Shown in pieces: positions 1 to 43,762 of a stretch of DNA of 64,000 bases. The notes beneath the pieces were generated by a model that was not told the DNA's origin, did no database searches, and saw only the letters and a list, made by a program, of their open reading frames with translations. Made by a program: the position numbers and the translations under genes. Numbering within the stretch: position 1 is the stretch's first letter; every line of letters begins with the position of its first letter. The stretch is from Streptomyces armeniacus (GTDB taxonomy: Bacteria; Actinomycetota; Actinomycetes; Streptomycetales; Streptomycetaceae): contig NZ_CP031320.1 in NCBI RefSeq assembly GCF_003355155.1, positions 6,384,287 through 6,448,286 on the forward strand, written 5' to 3'.

Positions 1-578
1 CGTCCCTCACACTGCTCGGGCGACATGTAGGCGACGGTGCCCAGGACCCTGTTGTTCTGGGTCAGCCGTGTCTGATCTGTCCTGAACACCTTGGCCACGC
101 CGAAATCCAGCACCATGACTCGGTGACGGTCGGTCAGCATGATGTTGGCGGGCTTGAGGTCCCGGTGGATGACGGGGATCGCATGGGTATGTTCGAGGAC
201 GTCGCAGATCTGGACAGCGAGGGACACAACCTCGTCCTCGGATAAGCGATGTCCGTCCGCGATGACCTGGGTGAGGTCCCGTCCGAGGACGTGGTCCATC
301 ACCAGATAGGCGTCGCTTGCGACGGAATCCACGCGTGCGTCGAGGAACGCCGGGATGCCCGGGTGCTTCCAACGTGCCAGGAGGTCGGCCTCGAGTGTGA
401 AGCGCTGGATGAGTTCCTCGGGGTGACGGGGGTCTAGCAGTTCCCGATGGATGCCTTTGACGGCAACTGCTCGCCGTGATCGGCGGTCGTACGCCAGCCA
501 GACGTCCCCCATGGCGCCACGGCCGAGTCGTCGGCGTAGCTCGTAGCGCTCGCCGAGAACGTGCCCGTCACTCCACAC
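1..578 (-). CDS. Serine/threonine protein kinase (C-terminus outside window)
   Basis: About 192 residues of a Hanks-type kinase domain are present; the rest lies beyond base 1. Visible landmarks are the glycine-rich loop LGRGAMGDV (residues 18-26), the ATP-anchoring lysine in AVAVK (Lys41), the catalytic loop HRDLKPAN (138-145), DFG (158-160) and an activation segment ending in SPEQ. All catalytic residues in view are intact. The GTG start overlaps the stop of the upstream AIPR gene, so the two are translationally coupled. Its place as last gene of the AICE cargo operon suggests a signalling or effector role in a defence module rather than housekeeping; that is inference. No membrane segment is visible in the part present. 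Confidence 0.85.
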   Translation of the reverse strand, partial: MWSDGHVLGERYELRRRLGRGAMGDVWLAYDRRSRRAVAVKGIHRELLDPRHPEELIQRFTLEADLLARWKHPGIPAFLDARVDSVASDAYLVMDHVLGRDLTQVIADGHRLSEDEVVSLAVQICDVLEHTHAIPVIHRDLKPANIMLTDRHRVMVLDFGVAKVFRTDQTRLTQNNRVLGTVAYMSPEQCEG

Positions 579-2703
579 CAGGACCGTCGCCCGACGCTTC
601 CACGTCCGCCAGCAGCTCGCTGGCGAGATCGGCCAGTGTGCCTTCGCCAGGTAGGTACCACCGCGTCGTACCCTGCACCGCCGCGGGCTGTTCGACCCAT
701 TTGGCTCTCTCCCAGATCTGCAGCACCAGTCCGGATGGCGAGTAGCGTCGGCCGTCCAGCGCCCAGATCAAGGGCTTGCGGGTGTCGTTGACCCAGGTGG
801 CCAAATACCGCTCAGGACCCCCGCCGAGCCACGCGCTCACGGCATCCCGCTCCACGATGCCTGGACGGTAGATCAGTTGGGCACCGTCGTCGATGAGCCG
901 GTGCTGGACGAGGAGGGGCACGGTGTTGGGACGCCGCCGACGATTCGGACGCGGCGGGGTGATAAGTCTTCTTCCAGCTCCGTGTCGCAGGGTCTGCAAG
1001 ACGTCAGAGACGAGGTGTCGGCAACTCTGCTCGTCGCGCAAGATCCGGGTGACGAAGGCGTGCTGGCCATAGCGAACGGCCAGGCTATCGGTGAGGGCGA
1101 CAAGGGTCTCGCCGGTCCGTTTCACGGCTCCGTGGCCGCGCGCATCCCAATCGTCCCCTGGCTCATCGATTCCGTCGCCGCCGATCAGCTGGAAGACCGC
1201 GTGGGCGACCAACAGTTCGGCTCGATCGGCAACCACGCGCTCGCGCCCTTCTAGACTGTCGGCCAGGATCGCCAGCTCGTCACGGACCTGGCGCAACAGA
1301 CTGACGGACCGCCAGATCTGCAACGCGCCCGGCCGGTTGTCGAAGAGCCGGGAGTAGAAGCCGCCCGAGGCGCTGCGCCACAGGACATCGCCGTCCGCCT
1401 GGTACCGGGCGAGCAGCGCGGCATTGGGGTAGGCACAGGTGAGGGCGAGCGCCGCCTCGGCCATGGTGCACCCTGCGGCCGGTGACGGCTCCGGGCTGCC
1501 GCGCTTGAGGACGTACGACTTGCCCAGCGACAAGGCTAGGTCCTGACGGATGAGCTCCTGCTGGGGATCTAGCGCGGCAAAGTCCTGCGCTTCGACGTGG
1601 TTCTGCGTGTTGGTCGCTCGTGTGATCCGCTGTGCCAGGTCGTTCGGGGCTCCGTCCAGGCAGATGAAGCGGACCGGAACGAGCGCTTCAGCGACCGCCC
1701 GCGGTTCCTGCTCGTAGGCCTGACGGGCAGCGGCCACCGTCTGAGCGCCGTTCACGACTCGTGCGTTGCCCAACTCCAGCCGAACCGGCTGGCCTTGAAA
1801 GGGTCGGGCGATATACGTAGTCCGGACAGAGTCGCACAACACCGTGATGCCGTTGTTGAGGTACCAGAATTCCTGCGGGGCGTTTAGCAGGCTATCAACC
1901 ATGGTCGCGTTGACGTCGGTCGCACCCAGCGCGAAGCGCACGTTCTGGTCAAAGAGCCGCGTGCCGTGCTGCTCATACCACCCGGCCAGTTCCTCGGCGC
2001 TCACCGTGCCGAGATACGTCTGGTAGGGGGTCGAGTTCATGTGCCAGCCGTCCGACAATGTGGCGGTGATCGTTGCGGGTTCGGGCAAGGACCCCCTCTG
2101 TACGATTGCGTGGAAGTCGGGAACGCCCAAAATCCGGAAGTCCAGCAGCTCCCCCCACTGGTTGAATTCGCTCACGCCTTCGTGCAACAGGTCGTCTGCC
2201 TCGGATGAAAGGACTTCGTCGCCCAAAGCGGCGAAAACCAGGTGGGCCCGAAGGGCTGGCTCGCGGAGCAACGCCTGGATCCTGGGGACCAGTTGTTGGA
2301 ACCTTGCGCTGAACTGGTCGTACCGGCAGTCGAAGAGTTGCTGGACACCGTGGAGCAACTGGTGGACGGCATTGCTATCCATCCGGGCGGCGGCTTGGTC
2401 GCTCCACTTCGCCTGGACCAGCCAGATCTCCATGGTTGCGGGTGAGACGAACACGGCGTCGATACCCTGGTCGTCCGCTCCGTCGACGACCACCGCAGCT
2501 GCCTCCGCTGCTGTAGCGTCCGCGACCAGCTGCACCGCCTTCGCGGCCAGGGCCCGCGAGAGAAAGACCCTCTCGCGCTGCACCGGGGATCCCGTCGTGA
2601 TGTCGTCCATGTCGAGCAGGCCGACGAACTCCCGTACCAGGGCGGTACGGATCTGCCGGACCTCCAGGGGAATACCGGGAAGGGCTTCAGTCCCGTGTTC
2701 CAT
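568..2703 (-). CDS. AIPR-family protein (abortive phage infection related) with PD-(D/E)XK-like N-terminus
   Basis: A 711-residue protein with the hallmarks of the AIPR family: NVRFALG (254-260), FWYLNNGITV (279-288) and NARVVNGAQT (313-322). The N-terminal third has a nuclease-like signature, a GID aspartate (residue 82) followed by VQAK (96-99) on the next strand, as in PD-(D/E)XK enzymes. Family members are linked to abortive phage infection and to restriction-type loci. I chose the ATG at 2703 because AAGGAG lies 6 nt upstream; a GTG at 2748 overlapping the previous stop would add 15 residues but has weaker support. The gene lies between a DUF7019-like gene and the kinase gene, and its stop overlaps the kinase start. 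Family assignment is strong; nuclease activity is inferred. Confidence 0.85.
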   Translation of the reverse strand: MEHGTEALPGIPLEVRQIRTALVREFVGLLDMDDITTGSPVQRERVFLSRALAAKAVQLVADATAAEAAAVVVDGADDQGIDAVFVSPATMEIWLVQAKWSDQAAARMDSNAVHQLLHGVQQLFDCRYDQFSARFQQLVPRIQALLREPALRAHLVFAALGDEVLSSEADDLLHEGVSEFNQWGELLDFRILGVPDFHAIVQRGSLPEPATITATLSDGWHMNSTPYQTYLGTVSAEELAGWYEQHGTRLFDQNVRFALGATDVNATMVDSLLNAPQEFWYLNNGITVLCDSVRTTYIARPFQGQPVRLELGNARVVNGAQTVAAARQAYEQEPRAVAEALVPVRFICLDGAPNDLAQRITRATNTQNHVEAQDFAALDPQQELIRQDLALSLGKSYVLKRGSPEPSPAAGCTMAEAALALTCAYPNAALLARYQADGDVLWRSASGGFYSRLFDNRPGALQIWRSVSLLRQVRDELAILADSLEGRERVVADRAELLVAHAVFQLIGGDGIDEPGDDWDARGHGAVKRTGETLVALTDSLAVRYGQHAFVTRILRDEQSCRHLVSDVLQTLRHGAGRRLITPPRPNRRRRPNTVPLLVQHRLIDDGAQLIYRPGIVERDAVSAWLGGGPERYLATWVNDTRKPLIWALDGRRYSPSGLVLQIWERAKWVEQPAAVQGTTRWYLPGEGTLADLASELLADVEASGDGPGVE

Positions 2704-2747
2704 GGCGTGCTCCTTCTGGAACGCTCCGGCTCCGCGCGGCCAGCACA

Positions 2748-3476
2748 CTAGTTGACGTACTCCACGATCAAGGGGCTCGCGACCAGACAGCCTCCCTCGG
2801 TGGCCGTCGCGGGCAACAGGGCACTCACCTTGGCGTAGCCGATCATGAGTGCGGAGGTGCTGACCTCGGTGCTCTCGGCGTCGAGGGCTGTGAGGAGATC
2901 GCGGATGCCAGCGCGGGACAGGGATGGAGCCGGTCCCGGCGAAGTATCGTCCTGTGCGTCGGGGCCGAGCGGCCCCTGGGCGCGGGCCAGTTCGGCAAGG
3001 ACATGTCCGGCCTGCGTGACGAAGAGCTTACCGGCGCTGTGGCCTCCGCCTTCTAGGTCTGTTAACGCGGGTCCGTCGACCTGGACGGGGGGACGACCAC
3101 TCAGGTGACGGGCCGACCCGTGGAGCAGCAAGCGACGGGTGACGCCAGCTTCGGGAGGGCTGGGGGGTGGGTCCACGAACAGCACGAGGTCCTGGAACCT
3201 GCCGCGGAGCGTGATCCAGCTCAGCGGGGCCTCGAACTGCACCCAGCGGCCGGGAGCAAGCTCGGGCTCCAGGTGTGAGAGCGCGCGCCGTGCCAGGTCC
3301 TTCTCCACCCGTTTGAGGTGGCGCAACAGGTCCCGTTGGAGGTCCGTCGCGGGGCTCTCCACGTTGATCCCGGCCATCGATACGCCCGCGTGCAGCTTGA
3401 TGGTGGGAACGGCCAGTCGAGGCTCCGGCAGGAACGCGCTCAGCTTGCCCTCGGACAAATAGACGATCTCACGCAC
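2748..3476 (-). CDS. DUF7019-like (SAVMC3_10250-type) protein
   Basis: A 242-residue soluble protein starting at GTG with the N-terminus MREIVYLSEGKLSAFLP, which I recognise from a Streptomyces family of unknown function annotated SAVMC3_10250/DUF7019. No catalytic motif, signal peptide or membrane segment is evident. The middle carries a Pro/Gly-rich stretch. It is the middle gene of the cargo operon, 80 bp after the acetyltransferase gene and about 45 bp before the preferred AIPR start. Its position beside AIPR and kinase genes suggests it is an accessory or sensor component of that module. Family recognition is from memory and moderate. Confidence 0.65.
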   Translation of the reverse strand: MREIVYLSEGKLSAFLPEPRLAVPTIKLHAGVSMAGINVESPATDLQRDLLRHLKRVEKDLARRALSHLEPELAPGRWVQFEAPLSWITLRGRFQDLVLFVDPPPSPPEAGVTRRLLLHGSARHLSGRPPVQVDGPALTDLEGGGHSAGKLFVTQAGHVLAELARAQGPLGPDAQDDTSPGPAPSLSRAGIRDLLTALDAESTEVSTSALMIGYAKVSALLPATATEGGCLVASPLIVEYVN

Positions 3477-12203: not shown

Positions 12204-14177
12204 ATGCCATCCGACCCGGCCGGAGCGCTGTACGGCAATGTGCGCGCTCTGACACAGCTGCCCGAACGCGGCGGTCCGCCTGCCGACTTGGAGGCGGAGG
12301 CCGCCGTCCTCGGCGCCATGATGCTCGCCGCCCGCGTGATCCCCGAAGTCGTCGCGACGATCAGCCCGGAGGACCACTACCGGCCCGCGCACGAGACCAT
12401 CCACCGCGCGCTCGTCGCCCTGCACGAGCAAGGCCAACCCGTAGATCCGATCACGCTCACGCACCACCTCGGCAAGCTCGGTGAGCTGAACCGCGTTGGC
12501 GGTCCGGGCTATATCCACAGCCTTGTGGATGCCGTACCGACGACGGCGAACGCCACGTACTACGCCGAGATCGTGCGCGAACTCGCCGAGCGGCGCCGCC
12601 TGATCGAAGCCGGTACGCGACTCGTACAGGCGGCATCCACGCCGGACGCCACAGCGGCCGAAGTGCGCGAAGCGCTCGCGCTGAGCGACGAGAAGTCCCC
12701 GGAGACGTGGCAGGAGCCCATCCCGCTCAGCTCCCGCCCTGCACTGCCCGCCTTCCCGCTGCACGCGCTGCCCGGCTGGCTGGCGGAGTTCTGCGCTGCG
12801 CTCGCGGAGGAGACGCAGACTCCGACGGGCCTGGCGGGCTCGCTGGCGTTGAGCGTGCTCGCCACGGCGGCGGGTGGCCGCAGCGTCGTGCATGTACGGG
12901 GCCGTTGGCACGAGCCGACGAACCTGTACGTGGTCGTGGCGCTGCCGCCGGCCAACCGCAAGTCGGCCGTGTTCTCCGCGATGACCGGCCCGCTGTACGA
13001 GGCGGAACGGAAGCTCGTCGACGAGGCCGCCGGCCGCATCGTCGAAGCGGAGCTGACGGCGAAGATGGCGCAGGAGGCTGCCGACAAGGCGGCGGCCAAG
13101 GCTGCGAACGCGGAGGGCCCGCAGCAAGACGCCCTCGTCGCGGAGGCCATCGATCTCGCGCAGACGGCGAAGTCGTTGGCCGTGCCGCCGTGCCCCCGGC
13201 TGCTCGCGGATGACGCCACACCGGAGACCGTCTCTTCCCTGCTGGCCGAACAGGGCGGACGGCTCGCCGTGATGTCGGCGGAGGGCGGCATCTTCGACAT
13301 CATCGCCGGGCGCTACTCCGGCACACCCAACATGGAAGTGTTCCTGAAGGGACACGCCGGGGACCGGCTACGCATCGACCGCCGCACGCGCGAAGAGTTC
13401 ATCGAGGCGCCCGCGCTCACCATGGGATTGGCTGTCCAGCCGAACGTGTTGGAGGACATCGGCAAGAACCGCGGCTTCGACGGCCGCGGGCTCCTCGCCC
13501 GCTTCCTGTACGCGCTCCCGGAATCCCTCGTCGGCTACCGGAAGATCAACCCGGCACCCGTACCGGACGCCGTCGCCGCCCGCTACGAGCGCAACGTCAT
13601 CGCCCTCACGCTCTCCCTCGCGGACCGGACGGACCCGGCCGTACTCCGACTCGATGAGGCGGCAGGCGCGTACCTCGTCGCCTACGAGCGGCACCTTGAG
13701 CCGCAGCTTCGGGCGAAGGGCGGCAAGCTCGGCCACGTCGGCAAGTGGGCGGGCAAGCTGGCCGGTACGGCAGCCCGTATCGCGGGACTCCTGCACATGG
13801 CTGCGCACCTGGAGGACGGCTACGGCCGGTCCATCGACGGGACCACGATGACGGCCGCGATCGAGGTCGCCGACTACTTCGCCGCCCACGCCCTCACCGT
13901 CTTCGACCTCATGGGCGCGGACGCCGCCCAGACCCGCGCCCGTTCGCTGCTGGACGTACTGGCCGCGAACGGCTGGGAGTCGGTGAGCCGTCGCGATCTG
14001 TTCGCGAAGCTGTCGCGCTCGGAGTTCCCCACGGTTGCCGACCTCGAACCGGCCGTCGCGCTCCTGGAGGAACACGGCTATCTGCGCGTCGACACGCCAC
14101 CCCGCAAAAACAAGCGCGGCCGGCCCCCGGCTCCGCGCTACGTCATCCACCCGCAGGTGCGGGAGGGGCACGCATGA
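12204..14177 (+). CDS. AICE replication protein: DnaB N-terminal domain fused to DUF3987
   Basis: A 657-residue protein. Residues about 20-145 resemble the N-terminal domain of DnaB helicase (LEAEAAVLGAMMLA, then IHRALVALHEQGQPVDPITL). Residues about 160-610 form a DUF3987/YfjI-type domain, with PPANRKSAV in place of a P-loop and LGHVGKWAGKLAGTAARIAG near the C-terminal end. It sits exactly where pSAM2-type elements carry rep, upstream of xis and int, so it is the likely replication initiator, although it differs from RepSA, RepAM and prim-pol types. ATG 12204 follows ACAGGAGG. Its stop overlaps the next ATG (ATGA). Confidence 0.75.
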   Translation: MPSDPAGALYGNVRALTQLPERGGPPADLEAEAAVLGAMMLAARVIPEVVATISPEDHYRPAHETIHRALVALHEQGQPVDPITLTHHLGKLGELNRVGGPGYIHSLVDAVPTTANATYYAEIVRELAERRRLIEAGTRLVQAASTPDATAAEVREALALSDEKSPETWQEPIPLSSRPALPAFPLHALPGWLAEFCAALAEETQTPTGLAGSLALSVLATAAGGRSVVHVRGRWHEPTNLYVVVALPPANRKSAVFSAMTGPLYEAERKLVDEAAGRIVEAELTAKMAQEAADKAAAKAANAEGPQQDALVAEAIDLAQTAKSLAVPPCPRLLADDATPETVSSLLAEQGGRLAVMSAEGGIFDIIAGRYSGTPNMEVFLKGHAGDRLRIDRRTREEFIEAPALTMGLAVQPNVLEDIGKNRGFDGRGLLARFLYALPESLVGYRKINPAPVPDAVAARYERNVIALTLSLADRTDPAVLRLDEAAGAYLVAYERHLEPQLRAKGGKLGHVGKWAGKLAGTAARIAGLLHMAAHLEDGYGRSIDGTTMTAAIEVADYFAAHALTVFDLMGADAAQTRARSLLDVLAANGWESVSRRDLFAKLSRSEFPTVADLEPAVALLEEHGYLRVDTPPRKNKRGRPPAPRYVIHPQVREGHA

Positions 14178-14695
14178 CTGTGATCACGCACCCTCAGCCG
14201 CAGAAACCGCAGAAGCAACAGAAATCAGGGTCCACTCACGTTGACCAGCAGCGGAGCACCCCGCACGGCGGAGTGGCCCGGCTGCCGCAGAAACAGGCGC
14301 AACCGCCGCACAAATCCACCGACGTGCCCCCGGCCCGCCCCGGCGCGGAGGCCCCAGGCGATTTCTGCGGCACTTCCCGTCCTTTCCGCGGCACGACCCC
14401 GCAGCACCCCAACTCCCCAGGTCAGAGCCCAGGTTCGCGCACTTCTGCGGATTCTGCGGTTTCTGCGGCGCGCACCCCTGTTCGTACGACCGAAAGGAGC
14501 GCTTTGCAGCAGCCGACGAGCACCGAAGTCTTCACCGTTCCCGAAGTGATGGCCGCGCTTCGGCTCAGCCGCTTCAAGGTCTACGACCTCATCCGCTCCG
14601 GCAAGCTGCCGAGCTTCACGGAAGGCCGGTCCCGTCGCGTCCCTGTGGATTCGCTCGCGACGTACATCCGCAACAAGATGGAGGGAGCAGCCTGA
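14174..14695 (+). CDS. Excisionase-like HTH protein with Gln/Pro-rich N-terminal extension
   Basis: A 173-residue frame. The last 60 residues (TEVFTVPEVMAALRLSRFKVYDLIRSGKL, split here only by position) form a MerR/Xis-type winged helix, as in AICE excisionases that work with the integrase next door. The first 110 residues are low complexity and coincide with the repeat array at 14198-14468. The ATG at 14174 has GGGAGGGG 5 nt upstream and overlaps the rep stop. A TTG at 14504 with AAAGGAG upstream would give a compact 63-residue Xis. Both could be used. The stop overlaps the integrase ATG. Confidence 0.7.
   Translation: MTVITHPQPQKPQKQQKSGSTHVDQQRSTPHGGVARLPQKQAQPPHKSTDVPPARPGAEAPGDFCGTSRPFRGTTPQHPNSPGQSPGSRTSADSAVSAARTPVRTTERSALQQPTSTEVFTVPEVMAALRLSRFKVYDLIRSGKLPSFTEGRSRRVPVDSLATYIRNKMEGAA
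14198..14468. repeat. Iteron-like array of CCGCAGAA / TTCTGCGG
   Basis: Exact CCGCAGAA lies at 14198, 14207 and 14285; exact TTCTGCGG (its complement) at 14363, 14443, 14452 and 14461. Near matches lie at 14306 and 14384. Tandem copies have a 9-bp period, and the two orientations face each other around about 14325. This looks like a replication origin or Xis/Rep binding array placed between rep and int. Confidence 0.65.
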
Positions 14696-15897
14696 TGGCC
14701 AAGCGCGCCAACGGAGAAGGAAGCATCACCCGTCGAAAGGACGGGCTGTACCACGGCCGTACGTACGTGACCACGGCCAGCGGCTTCCGCAAACGGATCT
14801 CCGTCTACGGCAAGACACGCGACGAGGTACGAACGAAGGTCACGGAGCTTCAGGCACAAGATGCCAAAGGCGTGCCCGTGCCTGACACGAACGCCAAGGT
14901 CGAGGAATACCTCACGTACTGGCTCGCGAGCGTGGTGAAGCCCAGCCGTCGACCGAAGACCTATCAGGGCTACGAGAGCGTTGTCCGCGTCCACATCGTT
15001 CCCGGCCTGGGTCGCAAGAAGCTGCGAACGCTCCGGGCGGCTGAGGTGCGGGCCTGGCTCGGCAGGGTCGCCGGCGAGTGCCAGTGCTGCAAGCACGGAT
15101 GGGACGCCGACCGCACCGAGCCCCGCTGCTGCGCGGCAGGGGAGTGCTGCCGCTCGGTCCTCTCGCGCCGCATGGTGCAGTCCATCCACGCGGTGCTGCG
15201 GAACGCTCTCCAGAACGCCGTACGTGAGGAACTGATCATGCGGAACGTCGCCCGGCTCGTACAGGTGCCGACCCCGACCTACGACACGGGGAAGGGCCTC
15301 AGCGTCGCTCAGGCCCGGCTGCTGCTGAAGACGGCGGCAGCCGACCGGCTCCACGCGCTCTACGTGCTCGCCGTCACGATGGGCATGCGGCGCGGTGAGC
15401 TGCTGGGGCTGCTCTGGGAAGCCGTCGATCTGGAACGCGGCACGCTCGTGGTCGAGCGGTCACTCCAGCGCGTCGAAGGTGAGCTGCGTCTCGTACGTCC
15501 CAAGACCCGGTCGTCGGTCCGCACGGTGCCCCTGCCGCCACTGGTGGTGAAGGCACTCGAAGATCACAAGGAGCGACAGGCGCAGGAGTGTGCAGCCGCC
15601 GGAGACGGTTGGACAGAGAACGGGCTCGTCTTCACGTCCCGCGTCGGCACCCCGCTGGAGCCGGACAACCTGCGGCGCAGTTGGTATCCGCTCCGTGAGC
15701 GTCTTGGGCTGGACATCCGGTTCCACGACCTACGGCACTCGTGCGTGACGCTGCTGCTGGACCTTGGCGTCCCGCCGCACATCGTGCAGCAGATCGCCGG
15801 ACACAGCGGTATCGAGGTCACGATGACCGTGTACGCGCATGCGTCGCTGGACGAGATGCGGAAGGGCCTGGACAAGCTCGGAGACAGCCTGAGCTGA
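14695..15897 (+). CDS. int: Site-specific tyrosine recombinase (AICE integrase)
   Basis: A 400-residue integrase. An N-terminal arm-binding domain (residues 1-60) and a SAM-like core-binding domain (65-170) precede the catalytic domain, with MGMRRGELLGL (first Arg), HDLRHSCVTLLL (His-x-x-Arg), GHS and the nucleophile region VTMTVYAH. The core-binding domain carries a Cys cluster (CQCCKHGW and CCAAGECC), common in AICE integrases. It integrates the element at the adjacent tRNA-Phe and excises it together with Xis. ATG 14695 overlaps the preceding TGA. The terminator at 15934 follows the stop. Confidence 0.95.
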   Translation: MAKRANGEGSITRRKDGLYHGRTYVTTASGFRKRISVYGKTRDEVRTKVTELQAQDAKGVPVPDTNAKVEEYLTYWLASVVKPSRRPKTYQGYESVVRVHIVPGLGRKKLRTLRAAEVRAWLGRVAGECQCCKHGWDADRTEPRCCAAGECCRSVLSRRMVQSIHAVLRNALQNAVREELIMRNVARLVQVPTPTYDTGKGLSVAQARLLLKTAAADRLHALYVLAVTMGMRRGELLGLLWEAVDLERGTLVVERSLQRVEGELRLVRPKTRSSVRTVPLPPLVVKALEDHKERQAQECAAAGDGWTENGLVFTSRVGTPLEPDNLRRSWYPLRERLGLDIRFHDLRHSCVTLLLDLGVPPHIVQQIAGHSGIEVTMTVYAHASLDEMRKGLDKLGDSLS

Positions 15898-22964: not shown

Positions 22965-25808
22965 ATGCTGACGCTGGGTGAGCTGACAGCGGGGACGCAG
23001 CCGGAATATCAGACGGCCGCGTCCCATGCCGCTTACGTGACCGATGCCGCCATTGAAGAAGTGGTCCTGTGCGACGGGCAGTGGGAGCCTGCCCAACACG
23101 GCCAGCTCAGGTACGCGATCCTGGTCTGCCAGGGGCCGGCCGTGGTCAAGGACGGCGAAGTATGGACACGGTGGGCAGGAAAGCTCGCGCAGCGCGGGGT
23201 CGTGGCAATCGTGGTAGCCGGGCTCGCCCGGGGTGAGTTCCCCGCTGAACTCGTCACGGCGGCGAGCCGACACCGTCTGCCCCTCCTGGTGCCGACGGAG
23301 TACGGGAGTGCTGTCGAGGTGCGGGCCAGACTGCTGGAGCGACAGGTCAAGGCACTGGCCTCCGGCGCTGGGCAGTCGTACGCCCTGCTGCACGAGTTCG
23401 GCCGGTTGCACCGACAGGGTGAGGGGCCGCTCCCGTTGCTGAGGAACCTGGGAAAGCAGGTGGGCGGCCGGGTCCGCCTGTTGAGCGGCGGCGGTGACTG
23501 GGGGGACCTGGCCCAGCACACGGCGGTGCTCGATGACATCGCGGCAGGGCAGAAACACAGCGCCAAGGTCCTGGATGCGAACCCGCCGCTTCTGCTGCAT
23601 CCAGTGGGCAGCGCACCGCCCTACGAGGTGCTGGCCGCCGAGCGCCCTGGGGGTTGGCCCGCGCATTTGGCCACGTTGATACGGGAGTCGGTCGGCCTGG
23701 TACACCCATTGCGGCAGCCGCTGGCTCTGCGCGCGAGGGAGAAGCGCCTGGAGCACTCGGAAGCGATGATCCGTGTCAGCGTGCTGCAAGATCTGATGGC
23801 GGGCAAGGTGACGCAGGCCGCGCGTGCCGCGGCGCCCCTCCTGCCCGGCTTCCTTGCAGACGAGGAGAGCATCGCCGACGGCGGCGTTGAGCTTGGCGTG
23901 CTGCAGGTTGCGCCCGGTGAGGAGCGGATCGCGGTTGCGGCCGAAGTCGAAATGGCGCTCGGCTGGACGGCGCTCGTCGTGCTCTGCCCCGCCGAGTACG
24001 CGCACGTCATCATCCTTCTTCCATCCGCCGTAGGCACCGCCACGCGGCTGGCGGAGTTCCTGCGGCCCCTCGTCGAGCGGGTCCGCGGGCGGGCGCTGGG
24101 AGTCGGCCAGCCCGTCGCGTGGGGCAGCACCTCTCGCGGGTACACATGCGCCATCCACGCGTTGGCCCAGGCGACGGCACCCGGCGGCGACAACGTCGCG
24201 GTGCACGACGGCAGCGCCGCGTCCCTGGCACGCGAACTCCCTGACGATGCCTGGTACTGGGCGGCGGCCCTTCTGGACCGTTCGGAACTGAACGCCTTGT
24301 CGGACGCCGAGCGGCGACGTCTGTACGACCTGACGCAGTTGGCGCTCACCTTCGGCCCGACCCAGGCCTCCCGTCTGCTGGGCAGCGAAATCGACCCAGA
24401 AGCAGCCGCTGAGGTCGAGCGTGCAACGGCCATGCCCGCCCTGGAGGAGCACTGGAGTACGGCACTGACGCGGCTGCTGGAGAGTGACGTGGAACCAACG
24501 CACCGCAACACCGTCTCCCGCTACCGCGACATGCTGATGGACCTCGTCGGCCTGGACCCCGAGCGGCTCGGGGACCGTGCGGTGATGAGCCTGGCCCTGC
24601 AGCGATCCTGCCTGCCCAAGCCGGATCTCGAGCCGCTGGCCACACCGACACTGGCGGCCCTGTTCGCAACTCCTGAAGTGACGGAATGGGCCGATCACCT
24701 GCTCGTCCATCTCACCGACGAGCAACAGGAACTCCTGACGACCTGGCTGGACTGCGAAGCAGATACCACCATGACGGCTTTGGAGCTGGGGCTGCACCGA
24801 AATACGGTCAGGGAGCGGCTCAGGCGGTGCGGTGGCGCGATCTCGCGACCGCTGGTTCCCTGTCCGGACGCCGCCAAGAACGGTCGCGAACGGCAGGATT
24901 CCGGCAGCGCCCTCGACGATCTGTATTTTGCGCTCGCCATCAGCGACTCGCGGCCTGGGAGGCTGGCGCCGGATCCCGTCGCGAGCCGTATAACCCTGGA
25001 GCAGGATTGTCCCGACCCCGAGGCACCGCTGCCCCCGGGATCGCGCGTCGCCGGCGTGTACGACGCATCCATGTCCACCGGTGGAAAGGACGCTCATTCC
25101 AGCGATCGGCAGCTCATGGAGCGCATCCGGCGCATCTACCCCACGGCGACGGCGGCAGCGGACGAGAACCGCGGCTTCGTACGCCGATCCACACGCTGGC
25201 TCGCGCAAGAGCGGGGAATCCGCCAGTTCCTCGACATCGGCTGCGGGCTGTACTGCGCGCCGAACGTTCACGAGATCGCCGAGGAGATCCATCCCGACGC
25301 CCGGACCGTCTACGTGGACAACGAGCCCGAAGTCCGCAACCACATGCAGGTCTTCGCACAGAGCCCACCTCAGGGTCGCGTTGTGGTCCTCGACGGCGAC
25401 CTACGGGAGCCGAACGAAATCCGCACGCAGCTCACAGACACGCTGGACTTGGACCAGCCCGTCGCCGTCCTCCTCAACGCGGTGCTGCATTTCGTCGAAG
25501 ACCGGGCGCCTCTTCACCTCGTCCGTAGCCTGCTGAGTGGCATGCCCACGGGCAGTGCCCTGACCGTCACGTACGCCACCACCGCGTTCGACGCCGACAC
25601 ACCACCGCGTGTGGCCGCGCTCTACCGGGAGGCCGGCCACCAGTGCTCGACAGTCACCAGGGAGGAATTCCTCGAGCTGTTCGACGACTTGGAACTGGTC
25701 GACCCCGGCGCCGTGGCGGTACACCGCTGGCGGCCAGACAACTCCACCAGCACCGGCCTCGATGACAACCAGGTCAACATTGTGTGCGGCGTCGGCCTCG
25801 TACGCTGA
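22965..25808 (+). CDS. PucR-type regulator fused to a SAM-dependent methyltransferase
   Basis: A 947-residue two-part protein. Residues 1 to about 125 are the PucR N-terminal sensor domain (start MLTLGELTAGT). A central region follows, and residues about 583-630 hold the PucR C-terminal HTH (EQQELLTTWLDCEADTTMTA, then LGLHRNTVRERLRR). Residues about 690-947 form a DUF574/Methyltransf_19 domain with VYDASMSTGGKDAHSSDR, FLDIGCGLY (about 756-764) and VYVDNEPEVRNH. PucR proteins are activators of purine or amino-acid catabolism; Methyltransf_19 enzymes have unknown substrates. Fusion of the two is unusual. ATG 22965 matches the usual PucR start. The frame is uninterrupted across the joint. Confidence 0.85.
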   Translation: MLTLGELTAGTQPEYQTAASHAAYVTDAAIEEVVLCDGQWEPAQHGQLRYAILVCQGPAVVKDGEVWTRWAGKLAQRGVVAIVVAGLARGEFPAELVTAASRHRLPLLVPTEYGSAVEVRARLLERQVKALASGAGQSYALLHEFGRLHRQGEGPLPLLRNLGKQVGGRVRLLSGGGDWGDLAQHTAVLDDIAAGQKHSAKVLDANPPLLLHPVGSAPPYEVLAAERPGGWPAHLATLIRESVGLVHPLRQPLALRAREKRLEHSEAMIRVSVLQDLMAGKVTQAARAAAPLLPGFLADEESIADGGVELGVLQVAPGEERIAVAAEVEMALGWTALVVLCPAEYAHVIILLPSAVGTATRLAEFLRPLVERVRGRALGVGQPVAWGSTSRGYTCAIHALAQATAPGGDNVAVHDGSAASLARELPDDAWYWAAALLDRSELNALSDAERRRLYDLTQLALTFGPTQASRLLGSEIDPEAAAEVERATAMPALEEHWSTALTRLLESDVEPTHRNTVSRYRDMLMDLVGLDPERLGDRAVMSLALQRSCLPKPDLEPLATPTLAALFATPEVTEWADHLLVHLTDEQQELLTTWLDCEADTTMTALELGLHRNTVRERLRRCGGAISRPLVPCPDAAKNGRERQDSGSALDDLYFALAISDSRPGRLAPDPVASRITLEQDCPDPEAPLPPGSRVAGVYDASMSTGGKDAHSSDRQLMERIRRIYPTATAAADENRGFVRRSTRWLAQERGIRQFLDIGCGLYCAPNVHEIAEEIHPDARTVYVDNEPEVRNHMQVFAQSPPQGRVVVLDGDLREPNEIRTQLTDTLDLDQPVAVLLNAVLHFVEDRAPLHLVRSLLSGMPTGSALTVTYATTAFDADTPPRVAALYREAGHQCSTVTREEFLELFDDLELVDPGAVAVHRWRPDNSTSTGLDDNQVNIVCGVGLVR

Positions 25809-41420: not shown

Positions 41421-42271
41421 ATGGCTCAGCGCTCCCGCCCACAACGCAGCTCCCAAAGCAGGCAGTTGCACCGGACCGGCGAGCTTGTCCGCGCCCTGCT
41501 GGCTGCGCTCCTGCTCGTGGCCGTGACGGCCGGCATCCCCTGGGCACTGACGGTCTACATCGGCTGGCCCCTCCCAGACCACTGGCCGACCTGGAACGAG
41601 ATCCAGACCGTCCTGCTCACTCCGCTCAGCACCAGCGTGCTGCTCCACACCCTCGCGTGCGCGCTGTGGCCCACCTGGACGGCGTTCGTCGTCGACCTCG
41701 CCCGCACCGCCGTCGAGACCGTACGCACAGCCCAATTGCCCCTCGCGCGCCCCGCCAGTCCCCTGCACACCCTGGCCGCCGCACTCCTGACGACGGTCCT
41801 CCTGGCCTTGACGAACAGCCGTGCCGCTCAACCCGCCGCGCCCGCAGGCGCTACCACCGCGGCTGAACACCCCGCTGCCATCACGCGCACCGTTCTCCCG
41901 GAACGACCGTCTCCGCCGACGACCGCCGTCCACGACGGGCAACGAGCCGGGACGGCGCCGCGAACACCACCGCAGGAGCCGGGGACCGTCGTGGTGCGCC
42001 CACCCCACAACGGCATCCACGACAGCCTCTGGCGCATCGCCGACCGCGAACTGGGCGACGGAACCCGCTGGCCCGCACTCTTCTCCCGAAACGAAGGCCG
42101 CCCCCAATCGGACGGCCGCACCCTGACGAACCCCAACCTGCTCCGGCCCGGCTGGATCCTCCACCTCCCCGACACACCACAGCCTCCCGACCATGACGAT
42201 CACGTCCCGCCACGGCCCCCGAAACCTCCTCCCTCGCCAACTCCCGGCCCCCCACACCTCCACCTAGCCCT
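41421..42271 (+). CDS. LysM-domain membrane protein, truncated at an artificial junction
   Basis: The N-terminus has two membrane segments (residues about 22-45 and about 110-132). A Pro-rich linker follows, then a LysM-like domain with HNGIHDSLWRIADRELGDGT, WPALFSRNEG and LLRPGWILHLP. In Streptomyces Tad clusters the equivalent protein usually continues for many hundred residues, often with a BTAD regulatory domain. Here the frame runs into adapter sequence at 42272 and reads QMCIRDT, a known translation of Nextera adapter contamination. The real C-terminus is missing. Start ATG 41421. Confidence 0.8.
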
Positions 42272-42303
42272 GCGTCGGCAGACTCAGATGTGCATAAGAG
42301 ACA
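42272..42303. other. Nextera/Tn5 mosaic-end-like adapter sequence (assembly artefact)
   Basis: The block CGTCGGCAG (42273-42281), TCAGATGTG (42284-42292) and ATAAGAGACA (42294-42303) matches the Nextera Read-1 transposase adapter. I count about 28 of 33 identical positions, and 17 of 19 in the Tn5 mosaic end. Genes on both sides lose their natural ends here. Confidence 0.85.
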
Positions 42304-43588
42304 CGCCCCCGTCCGTGTCTCCGCCCCCGCCCTCCTCCGGGGACGACGGCATGCCGCGCAGCAGCCCGTAGCCGACCGCCATCACCGTGCCGAGCAGCGC
42401 GGAAAGGCCCCACAGGGCGTCCGGGCCGAAGCGGTCGATGACGAAGCCCCCGAGCAGCGGCGCGAGCAGGGAGGCCAGCGACCAGGAGAGCACGTACACG
42501 CCCTGGTACCGGCCGCGCCCGTGCGTCGGCGACAGGCGGACGACGAGTCCCATCTGGGTGGGGGAGTTGATGACCTCGCCGAGGGTCCAGACGGACACCG
42601 CGACGAGGTAGAACGCGACGGAGTCCGCGAACGCGTGCAGCCCGAAGCCGTAGCCGGTGAGGAGGGCGGAGACGACCAGCATGCGGGCGGGGTCGCGGCG
42701 CTGGATGACACGCGTGATCGGGATCTGTACGAGCACGATCAGCACGCCGTTCGCCGCGATCACCAGCCCGAAGTCGGAGCTGGAGAAGCCCTCCATGCCC
42801 ATCGACACCGGCAGCGCGACGAACGCCTGCTGGATGAGCAGCGCCATCACCAGGTTGAGTGCGACGACGGTCATGAAGCGTCCGTGCCTCAGCACCGTCC
42901 AGATCGAGACGGCCGTCGGGGCGGTATGTGAGACGGCGGTGTCTTCCGCCTCCGTACGGTCGCTGTTCCGCGCACCCTCGGGATGCTCCGGGCGGGTCTC
43001 CGGCAGTTTCACGAAGACGACGACCGCGCAGGCCAGCACCATGACGGCCTCGCCGAGGAACAGCAGTTGGTAGCTGTACTGCGCGATGAGCCCGGCCGCC
43101 GTGGAGGAGACGGCGAAACCCATGTTGATCGCCCAGTAGTTGAGCGCGAAGGCCCGCACCCGGTCCTCCGGGGCGACGATGTCCGCGATCATCGCCTGTA
43201 CGGCCGGCCGCGAGGCGTTGGTGGCCAGGCCGACCGTCCAGGCCAGCGCCGCGATGGCCACCGGGTGCTCGACGAAGCCGAGTGCCGCCACCGAGAGCGC
43301 CGTCGAGGTCTGTGCGAGCAGCAGGGTGGGGCGCCGCCCGAGGCGGTCGGCGAGGACGCCACCGCCGACGGAGGAGACCACGCTGCCGAGCCCGTAGAGC
43401 GCGCCGATCAGGCCGGCGTACGAGGCGGAGTAGCCGCGTTCGACGGTCAGATAGAGCGCGAGGAAGGTGGCGACGAAGGCGCCGAGCCGGTTGACGAGCG
43501 TGCTCGTCCACAGCCACCAGAACCGGCGCGGCAGGCCGCCCACGCTCTCCGAGACCGCCCGCCGCAGCCTGGCACCGGACATGCCCAT
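42284..43588 (-). CDS. MFS transporter (C-terminus altered by adapter)
   Basis: About 434 residues, 12 hydrophobic segments, with the major facilitator motif GLGSVVSSVGGGVLADRLGR, then RRPTLLLAQ, after TM2. It probably exports a drug or metabolite by proton antiport; the substrate is unknown. The ATG at 43588 follows a G-rich site (GGGGGG, 8-nt spacer). The last residues VSLMHI are read from adapter sequence, so the true end lies near the Glu-Gly-rich tail just before them. It is divergent from gpmA. Confidence 0.85.
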   Translation of the reverse strand: MGMSGARLRRAVSESVGGLPRRFWWLWTSTLVNRLGAFVATFLALYLTVERGYSASYAGLIGALYGLGSVVSSVGGGVLADRLGRRPTLLLAQTSTALSVAALGFVEHPVAIAALAWTVGLATNASRPAVQAMIADIVAPEDRVRAFALNYWAINMGFAVSSTAAGLIAQYSYQLLFLGEAVMVLACAVVVFVKLPETRPEHPEGARNSDRTEAEDTAVSHTAPTAVSIWTVLRHGRFMTVVALNLVMALLIQQAFVALPVSMGMEGFSSSDFGLVIAANGVLIVLVQIPITRVIQRRDPARMLVVSALLTGYGFGLHAFADSVAFYLVAVSVWTLGEVINSPTQMGLVVRLSPTHGRGRYQGVYVLSWSLASLLAPLLGGFVIDRFGPDALWGLSALLGTVMAVGYGLLRGMPSSPEEGGGGDTDGGVSLMHI

Positions 43589-43762
43589 CGCCCGCACCCC
43601 CCTGACCGTAAGCAGCCCACCGGCATACGCACGTTACGTAGCGCCGCGTGCGCGGAGCCACCGGATTGACGGGGAGCGTCAATCGGCCGCGGCACGGGCC
43701 CCGTACGGGCACGGTCGAGGGCCCGGAACCGGTCCCCCGTACGGGTCCATTAGTCTCGGAGC

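Follow-up and report, generated by a model that had tools for sequence, protein, structure and literature searches.

The junction between the Tad-gene side and the phoU side of the window (the whole 64,000-nucleotide stretch of Streptomyces armeniacus DNA analysed here) is almost certainly an assembly artefact: an error-rich Nextera adapter would have formed the end of a contig, and the pieces would later have been strung together. The initial annotation had read this site as a probable chimeric contig joint, and our analysis supports that reading, the right-hand partner being located by DNA and protein and the left-hand partner by protein. The join has no biological function and, as far as the organism's own genome can tell, the two flanks are not neighbours in the organism.

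Adapter sequence at the joint

What is the foreign sequence at the joint? As a query we used the Nextera i5 (Read 1) adapter, which we slid without gaps along the whole window in both orientations. The best placement, at 42272-42304 on the plus strand, matches at 28 of 33 bases, and the runner-up anywhere in the window, on either strand, matches at 20 of 33. Within this placement the 19-base Tn5 mosaic end at 42286-42304 (plus strand) agrees at 17 of 19 bases; it is the only occurrence in the window at up to three mismatches, and the mean across 100 dinucleotide shuffles is 0.01. The first reading had put the matches at about 28 of 33 and 17 of 19, and both counts were reproduced, as were the two translations that it had singled out: the plus-strand frame reads ...RRQTQMCIRDT and the minus-strand frame ends ...VSLMHI. 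Upstream of the mosaic end the sequence agrees with the i5 arm (Table 1), whereas the i7 arm tested at the same site matches at 3 of 15 bases. The last mismatch to the adapter, a C at 42304, probably belongs to the genome, since it opens a 21-base stretch that is found again at the end of the mshA-ybjN piece described below.

The adapter match may continue leftward at the expected spacing into the index position, where the best fit is to CTAAGCCT, the i5 index S508. Further left, the P5 sequence at its expected offset matches at a level that 0.9% of window positions attain, and the interval that separates the adapter from the left contig is possibly a degraded P5 tail or junk.

Table 1. Features at the joint, at the true partner of the right flank and elsewhere in the window. 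Coordinates are window positions unless marked as genome positions.
Feature	Position	Strand	Remarks
Tad-side protein, open frame	41421..42371	+	truncated near codon 270
Possible degraded P5 tail or junk	42235..42263	+	14/29 to P5; left edge of foreign sequence uncertain
i5 index position	42264..42271	+	6/8 to CTAAGCCT, best among 18 i5 indices
i5 (Read 1) arm of Nextera adapter	42272..42285	+	11/14 matches
Tn5 mosaic end	42286..42303	+	17/18 within these bases; 19th base, 42304, differs
MFS transporter gene	42284..43597	-	PF07690, E 8.7e-64; last residues VSLMHI are adapter
Overlap with true neighbour	42304..42324	+	21 bases identical to genome 8,018,350-8,018,370, where the mshA-ybjN piece ends
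MFS-frame tail	genome 8,018,198-8,018,370	opposite to ybjN	same frame as window MFS gene
AIPR family protein	568-2748	-	PF10592, E 1.1e-31
DnaB-N/DUF3987 protein, then tyrosine integrase	12204-15897
947-residue frame	22965-25808	+	PucR-type helix-turn-helix region; C-terminal S-adenosyl methyltransferase domain (PF04672)

The partner of the right flank and the probable partner of the left

The right flank begins with the MFS gene, followed by genes for a phosphoglycerate mutase, PhoU and a sensor kinase. We compared 91 loci around this MFS gene, from Streptomyces or the same genus, 80 of them with up to 10 kb of flank and 11 with about 1.5-2.8 kb. The right-flank genes are matched widely among these loci (mutase in 91, PhoU in 63, kinase in 59). 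On the other side, in the close relatives S. gossypii and S. oceani, the 3' end of the MFS gene faces a YbjN-family gene, which is followed by mshA. Of the 71 Streptomyces loci that have at least 9 kb of flank beyond MFS, 56 have mshA downstream in the facing orientation, and the remaining 15 have no facing mshA. A ybjN gene faces MFS in 61 of the 91 loci, is matched elsewhere in 3 and is absent from 27, of which 12 have more than 9 kb of flank; where ybjN is present, its distance from MFS ranges from adjacent to more than 8 kb and is at most 500 bp in 17 of 64 loci. The window's open reading frames of at least 90 residues between 20.8 and 42.26 kb have no match in the 91 loci (E 1e-8, within the available flanks), and a few frames to the left of 20.8 kb have weak matches in some of them.

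In the S. armeniacus genome itself, mshA (TIGR03449) and ybjN are found at 8,016,345-8,018,181, 1.59 Mb from the window joint, and an adapter stands directly before mshA at 8,016,329 (4 mismatches; i5 arm 13/14). Past the ybjN stop codon, 56 codons can be read on the opposite strand in the MFS frame before a stop that is close to that of ybjN. The 21-mer at window positions 42304-42324 occurs exactly at only two places in 8.08 Mb, the next best match having three mismatches. The MFS-frame tail and the unique 21-base overlap together identify the mshA-ybjN piece, and not the Tad region, as the natural left neighbour of the right flank, which continues at genome position 8,018,350 by the evidence of both DNA and protein. 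The warning in the initial annotation that synteny across the joint should not be trusted is thus well founded, since the true neighbour of the right flank lies 1.59 Mb away and is not the Tad side. Two further genes of this neighbourhood, one for polyphosphate kinase and one for a conserved protein without a Pfam or NCBIfam match, are at 7,815,451 and 7,974,643 of the same genome. In S. oceani or S. gossypii these two and mshA are no more than 8 kb from MFS, whereas in S. armeniacus they are spread across some 0.2 Mb close to the record's end.

The Tad genes of the left flank were confirmed by Pfam. The gene that abuts the joint on this side had been called a LysM gene, and it and the MFS gene were both said to lose their natural ends; both are indeed cut, the MFS identity is upheld by Pfam, and the LysM name is not, no Pfam family and hence no LysM domain being found in the cut Tad-side protein at E 0.01. 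The codons of its frame from somewhere after 42231 are adapter or junk, followed by MFS-side DNA read on the wrong strand. The best matches of the cut protein come from open frames mostly of about 950-1150 codons, and the window piece corresponds to roughly the N-terminal quarter of such a protein. In one homologue, from the genome G012, a BTAD domain lies at the C-terminus.

When the C-terminal part of the G012 homologue was searched against the organism's own genome, it had no match. The C-terminal half of a homologue from a second genome, G033, found two places. One is an intact paralogue of 952 codons at 6,349,663-6,352,518 (minus strand), about 32 kb to the left of the window. The other is the candidate partner, a frame of 696 codons about 185 kb from the window joint, which matches the C-terminal part of the family. 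This frame opens at 6,241,512, within the closing bases of the adapter copy that occupies 6,241,500-6,241,518, and a reverse copy lies at 6,241,339-6,241,357; the two mosaic ends of this joint have five mismatches each, and a recognised arm accompanies only one of them (12/14). Aligned to the paralogue, the window piece covers residues 72-294 and the piece at 6,241,512 covers residues 449-615 and 704-952, so that the two do not overlap. The protein matches on this side are at about 30% identity. An overlap sought between the DNA of the two left pieces was not found, the longest string in common being 7 bases; some sequence is therefore missing between them, and the partnership rests on the protein matches together with the position behind an adapter. 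We propose that the left flank most likely continues at about 6,241,519.

Farther into the left side of the window, the protein with DnaB-N and DUF3987 matches and the tyrosine integrase beside it are listed in Table 1, and this side is consistent with the presence of an integrative element. The window also encodes an AIPR family protein (abortive infection phage resistance) and a large frame that combines a PucR-type region with a methyltransferase domain.

Adapter relics across the record and the weighing of alternatives

The S. armeniacus genome (G000) consists of one record, 8,083,249 bases long, with a completeness rating of 100% and a contamination rating of 0.31%. It contains 92 mosaic ends at up to three mismatches, 51 forward and 41 reverse and none of them exact, and a reversed-pattern control over the same record gives no match. 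Ten pairs of sites are less than 300 bp apart, and all ten are oriented reverse then forward, which looks like contig, adapter, junk, adapter and contig in a row, with two contig ends both running into adapter. When the 92 sites are merged into 82 joints, the spacing between joints declines along the record (Spearman -0.88, p 5e-27). The density of sites rises from 2 in the first megabase to 38 in the eighth, and 15 of the 92 are within the last 83 kb. On the simplest reading, contigs or scaffolds would have been set in a row roughly from large to small, in an order that is not strictly by size. Among the small contigs at 7.94-8.04 Mb there are runs of N of 3,033 (across the neighbouring loci L032 and L033), 4,334 and 1,328 bases, which may be estimated gaps or withheld stretches.

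Arms were typed at 74 of the 92 sites with up to three mismatches, namely those within the stretches fetched, and 41 are of i5 type, 11 of i7 type and 22 of neither, N hiding the arm at some of the arm-less ones. An earlier typing of 85 sites had admitted sites with four or five mismatches only if they carried an arm and so favours arms; the 74-site counts are therefore used here. The 8 bases preceding the i5 arm, which played no part in the typing, have the consensus CTAGGCCT across the 41 i5-type sites, the fourth base being G in 18 and A in 14, and no more than 20 of them agree with CTAAGCCT at 6 or more of its 8 bases. Probably one library index is common to the i5 sites of the genome. Mismatches to the mosaic end number 166 and are unevenly distributed, with 59 changes of A to G, 35 of T to G and 31 of A to C; this skew suggests poor base calls rather than evolution.

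How did adapter come to lie inside a single record? The adapter's identity, its recurrence, its orientation, the gradient of piece sizes and the partners of the flanks (right by DNA and protein, left by protein) are observations; the sequencing and trimming errors and the concatenation step are inferences. Reads of a Nextera library would have run through short inserts into the adapter, and adapter copies with base-calling errors would have slipped past trimming. Contig ends, or gap-fill, would then have been extended into error-rich adapter, and the pieces would afterwards have been strung together, in a rough order of decreasing size, to give one record of 8.08 Mb. At the window joint the adapter at 42264-42303 (perhaps from 42235) would be the start of the right-hand contig, with the MFS, phosphoglycerate mutase, PhoU and sensor kinase genes, and the left-hand contig, with the integrase, replication-type and Tad genes, would have been placed ahead of it without a true physical link.

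Contamination with Nextera (Tn5) adapter has the same makeup as the sites described here, a mosaic end with i5 or i7 arms in the expected order, and it recurs in the genus. Mosaic ends at up to two mismatches are present in 42 of the 295 genus genomes sampled, S. armeniacus included, and with the reversed pattern as a control each strand of a genome gives at most one match. Among the matches listed for 18 multi-contig genomes of the genus there are 63 forward ends, and 62 of these are in the first 150 bases of a contig; adapter relics are thus independently shown to mark contig ends. In S. armeniacus the adapters lie in the interior of a single long record, presumably because adapter-ended pieces were joined afterwards. 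The record resembles a pseudomolecule of concatenated contigs in that its joint spacing decreases along its length and in that the genes neighbouring MFS in relatives are scattered over 7.8-8.02 Mb. The joins of a pseudomolecule are usually marked by a fixed linker of N; here, by contrast, N occurs within about 100 bp at 8 of the 74 adapter sites and is absent from that distance at the other 66.

Those 8 sites are one of the points that would fit a different history, in which the contigs were correctly ordered by read pairs and the adapter is only a filler, the gap having been closed with adapter-bearing reads. Several other joints do have the look of a filled gap, with reverse and forward adapter 49-195 bp apart, and the length of the MFS-ybjN stretch varies in relatives. 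Yet 1.59 Mb away the MFS-frame tail stands beside ybjN in a piece that has 21 bases in common with the window, and the other half of the left gene is most likely 185 kb away behind another adapter; with both partners elsewhere, neither flank continues into the other, and we regard a correct order with a badly filled gap as very unlikely. That the 19 bases could instead be the end of a real insertion, a natural transposon of the Tn5/IS50 type, is suggested by their 17 agreements with the mosaic end. This explanation is extremely improbable given that the match runs on through the synthetic i5 arm, that 92 ends are scattered through one genome and that the MFS tail is found elsewhere in it; a transposase family sought in the nine nearby proteins (37.9-47.0 kb) was not found. 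Chance similarity in GC-rich DNA, with both genes simply ending at the joint, has nothing in its favour beyond the imperfection of the adapter match, and the shuffle expectation, the poor second-best placement in the window and the empty reversed control over 8.08 Mb make its probability negligible. On this evidence we reject all three explanations and retain the end-to-end joining of adapter-ended contigs.

Consequences for synteny and for records rated complete

A second genome of the genus, G012, is likewise a single record (9,034,319 bases) and carries 102 mosaic ends at up to two mismatches. Only 17 of those among the matches listed lie below 4.5 Mb, and runs of N adjoin two of the four loci read (L182-L185); G012 resembles the same kind of concatenation because of these few ends below 4.5 Mb and the adjoining N. 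It is very probable that some single-record genomes of the genus rated complete, G000 and G012, are concatenated draft contigs with adapter relics at their seams. In a literature search we recognised nothing on the S. armeniacus genome or on adapter seams in Streptomyces records, a result that we do not offer as a claim of absence.

The artefact matters because the S. armeniacus record looks closed. Its 82 adapter-marked joints make long-range synteny of the record unreliable, the order itself having been examined at the window joint only. At these joints users can be misled about gene order, the boundaries of islands, position on the chromosome arms and which genes are truncated, and the link in the window between the integrase and Tad side and the phoU side is among those liable to mislead. 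If the concatenation that we propose for such records is true, adapter relics could serve to locate seams that are false and to clear comparative data sets of spurious synteny.
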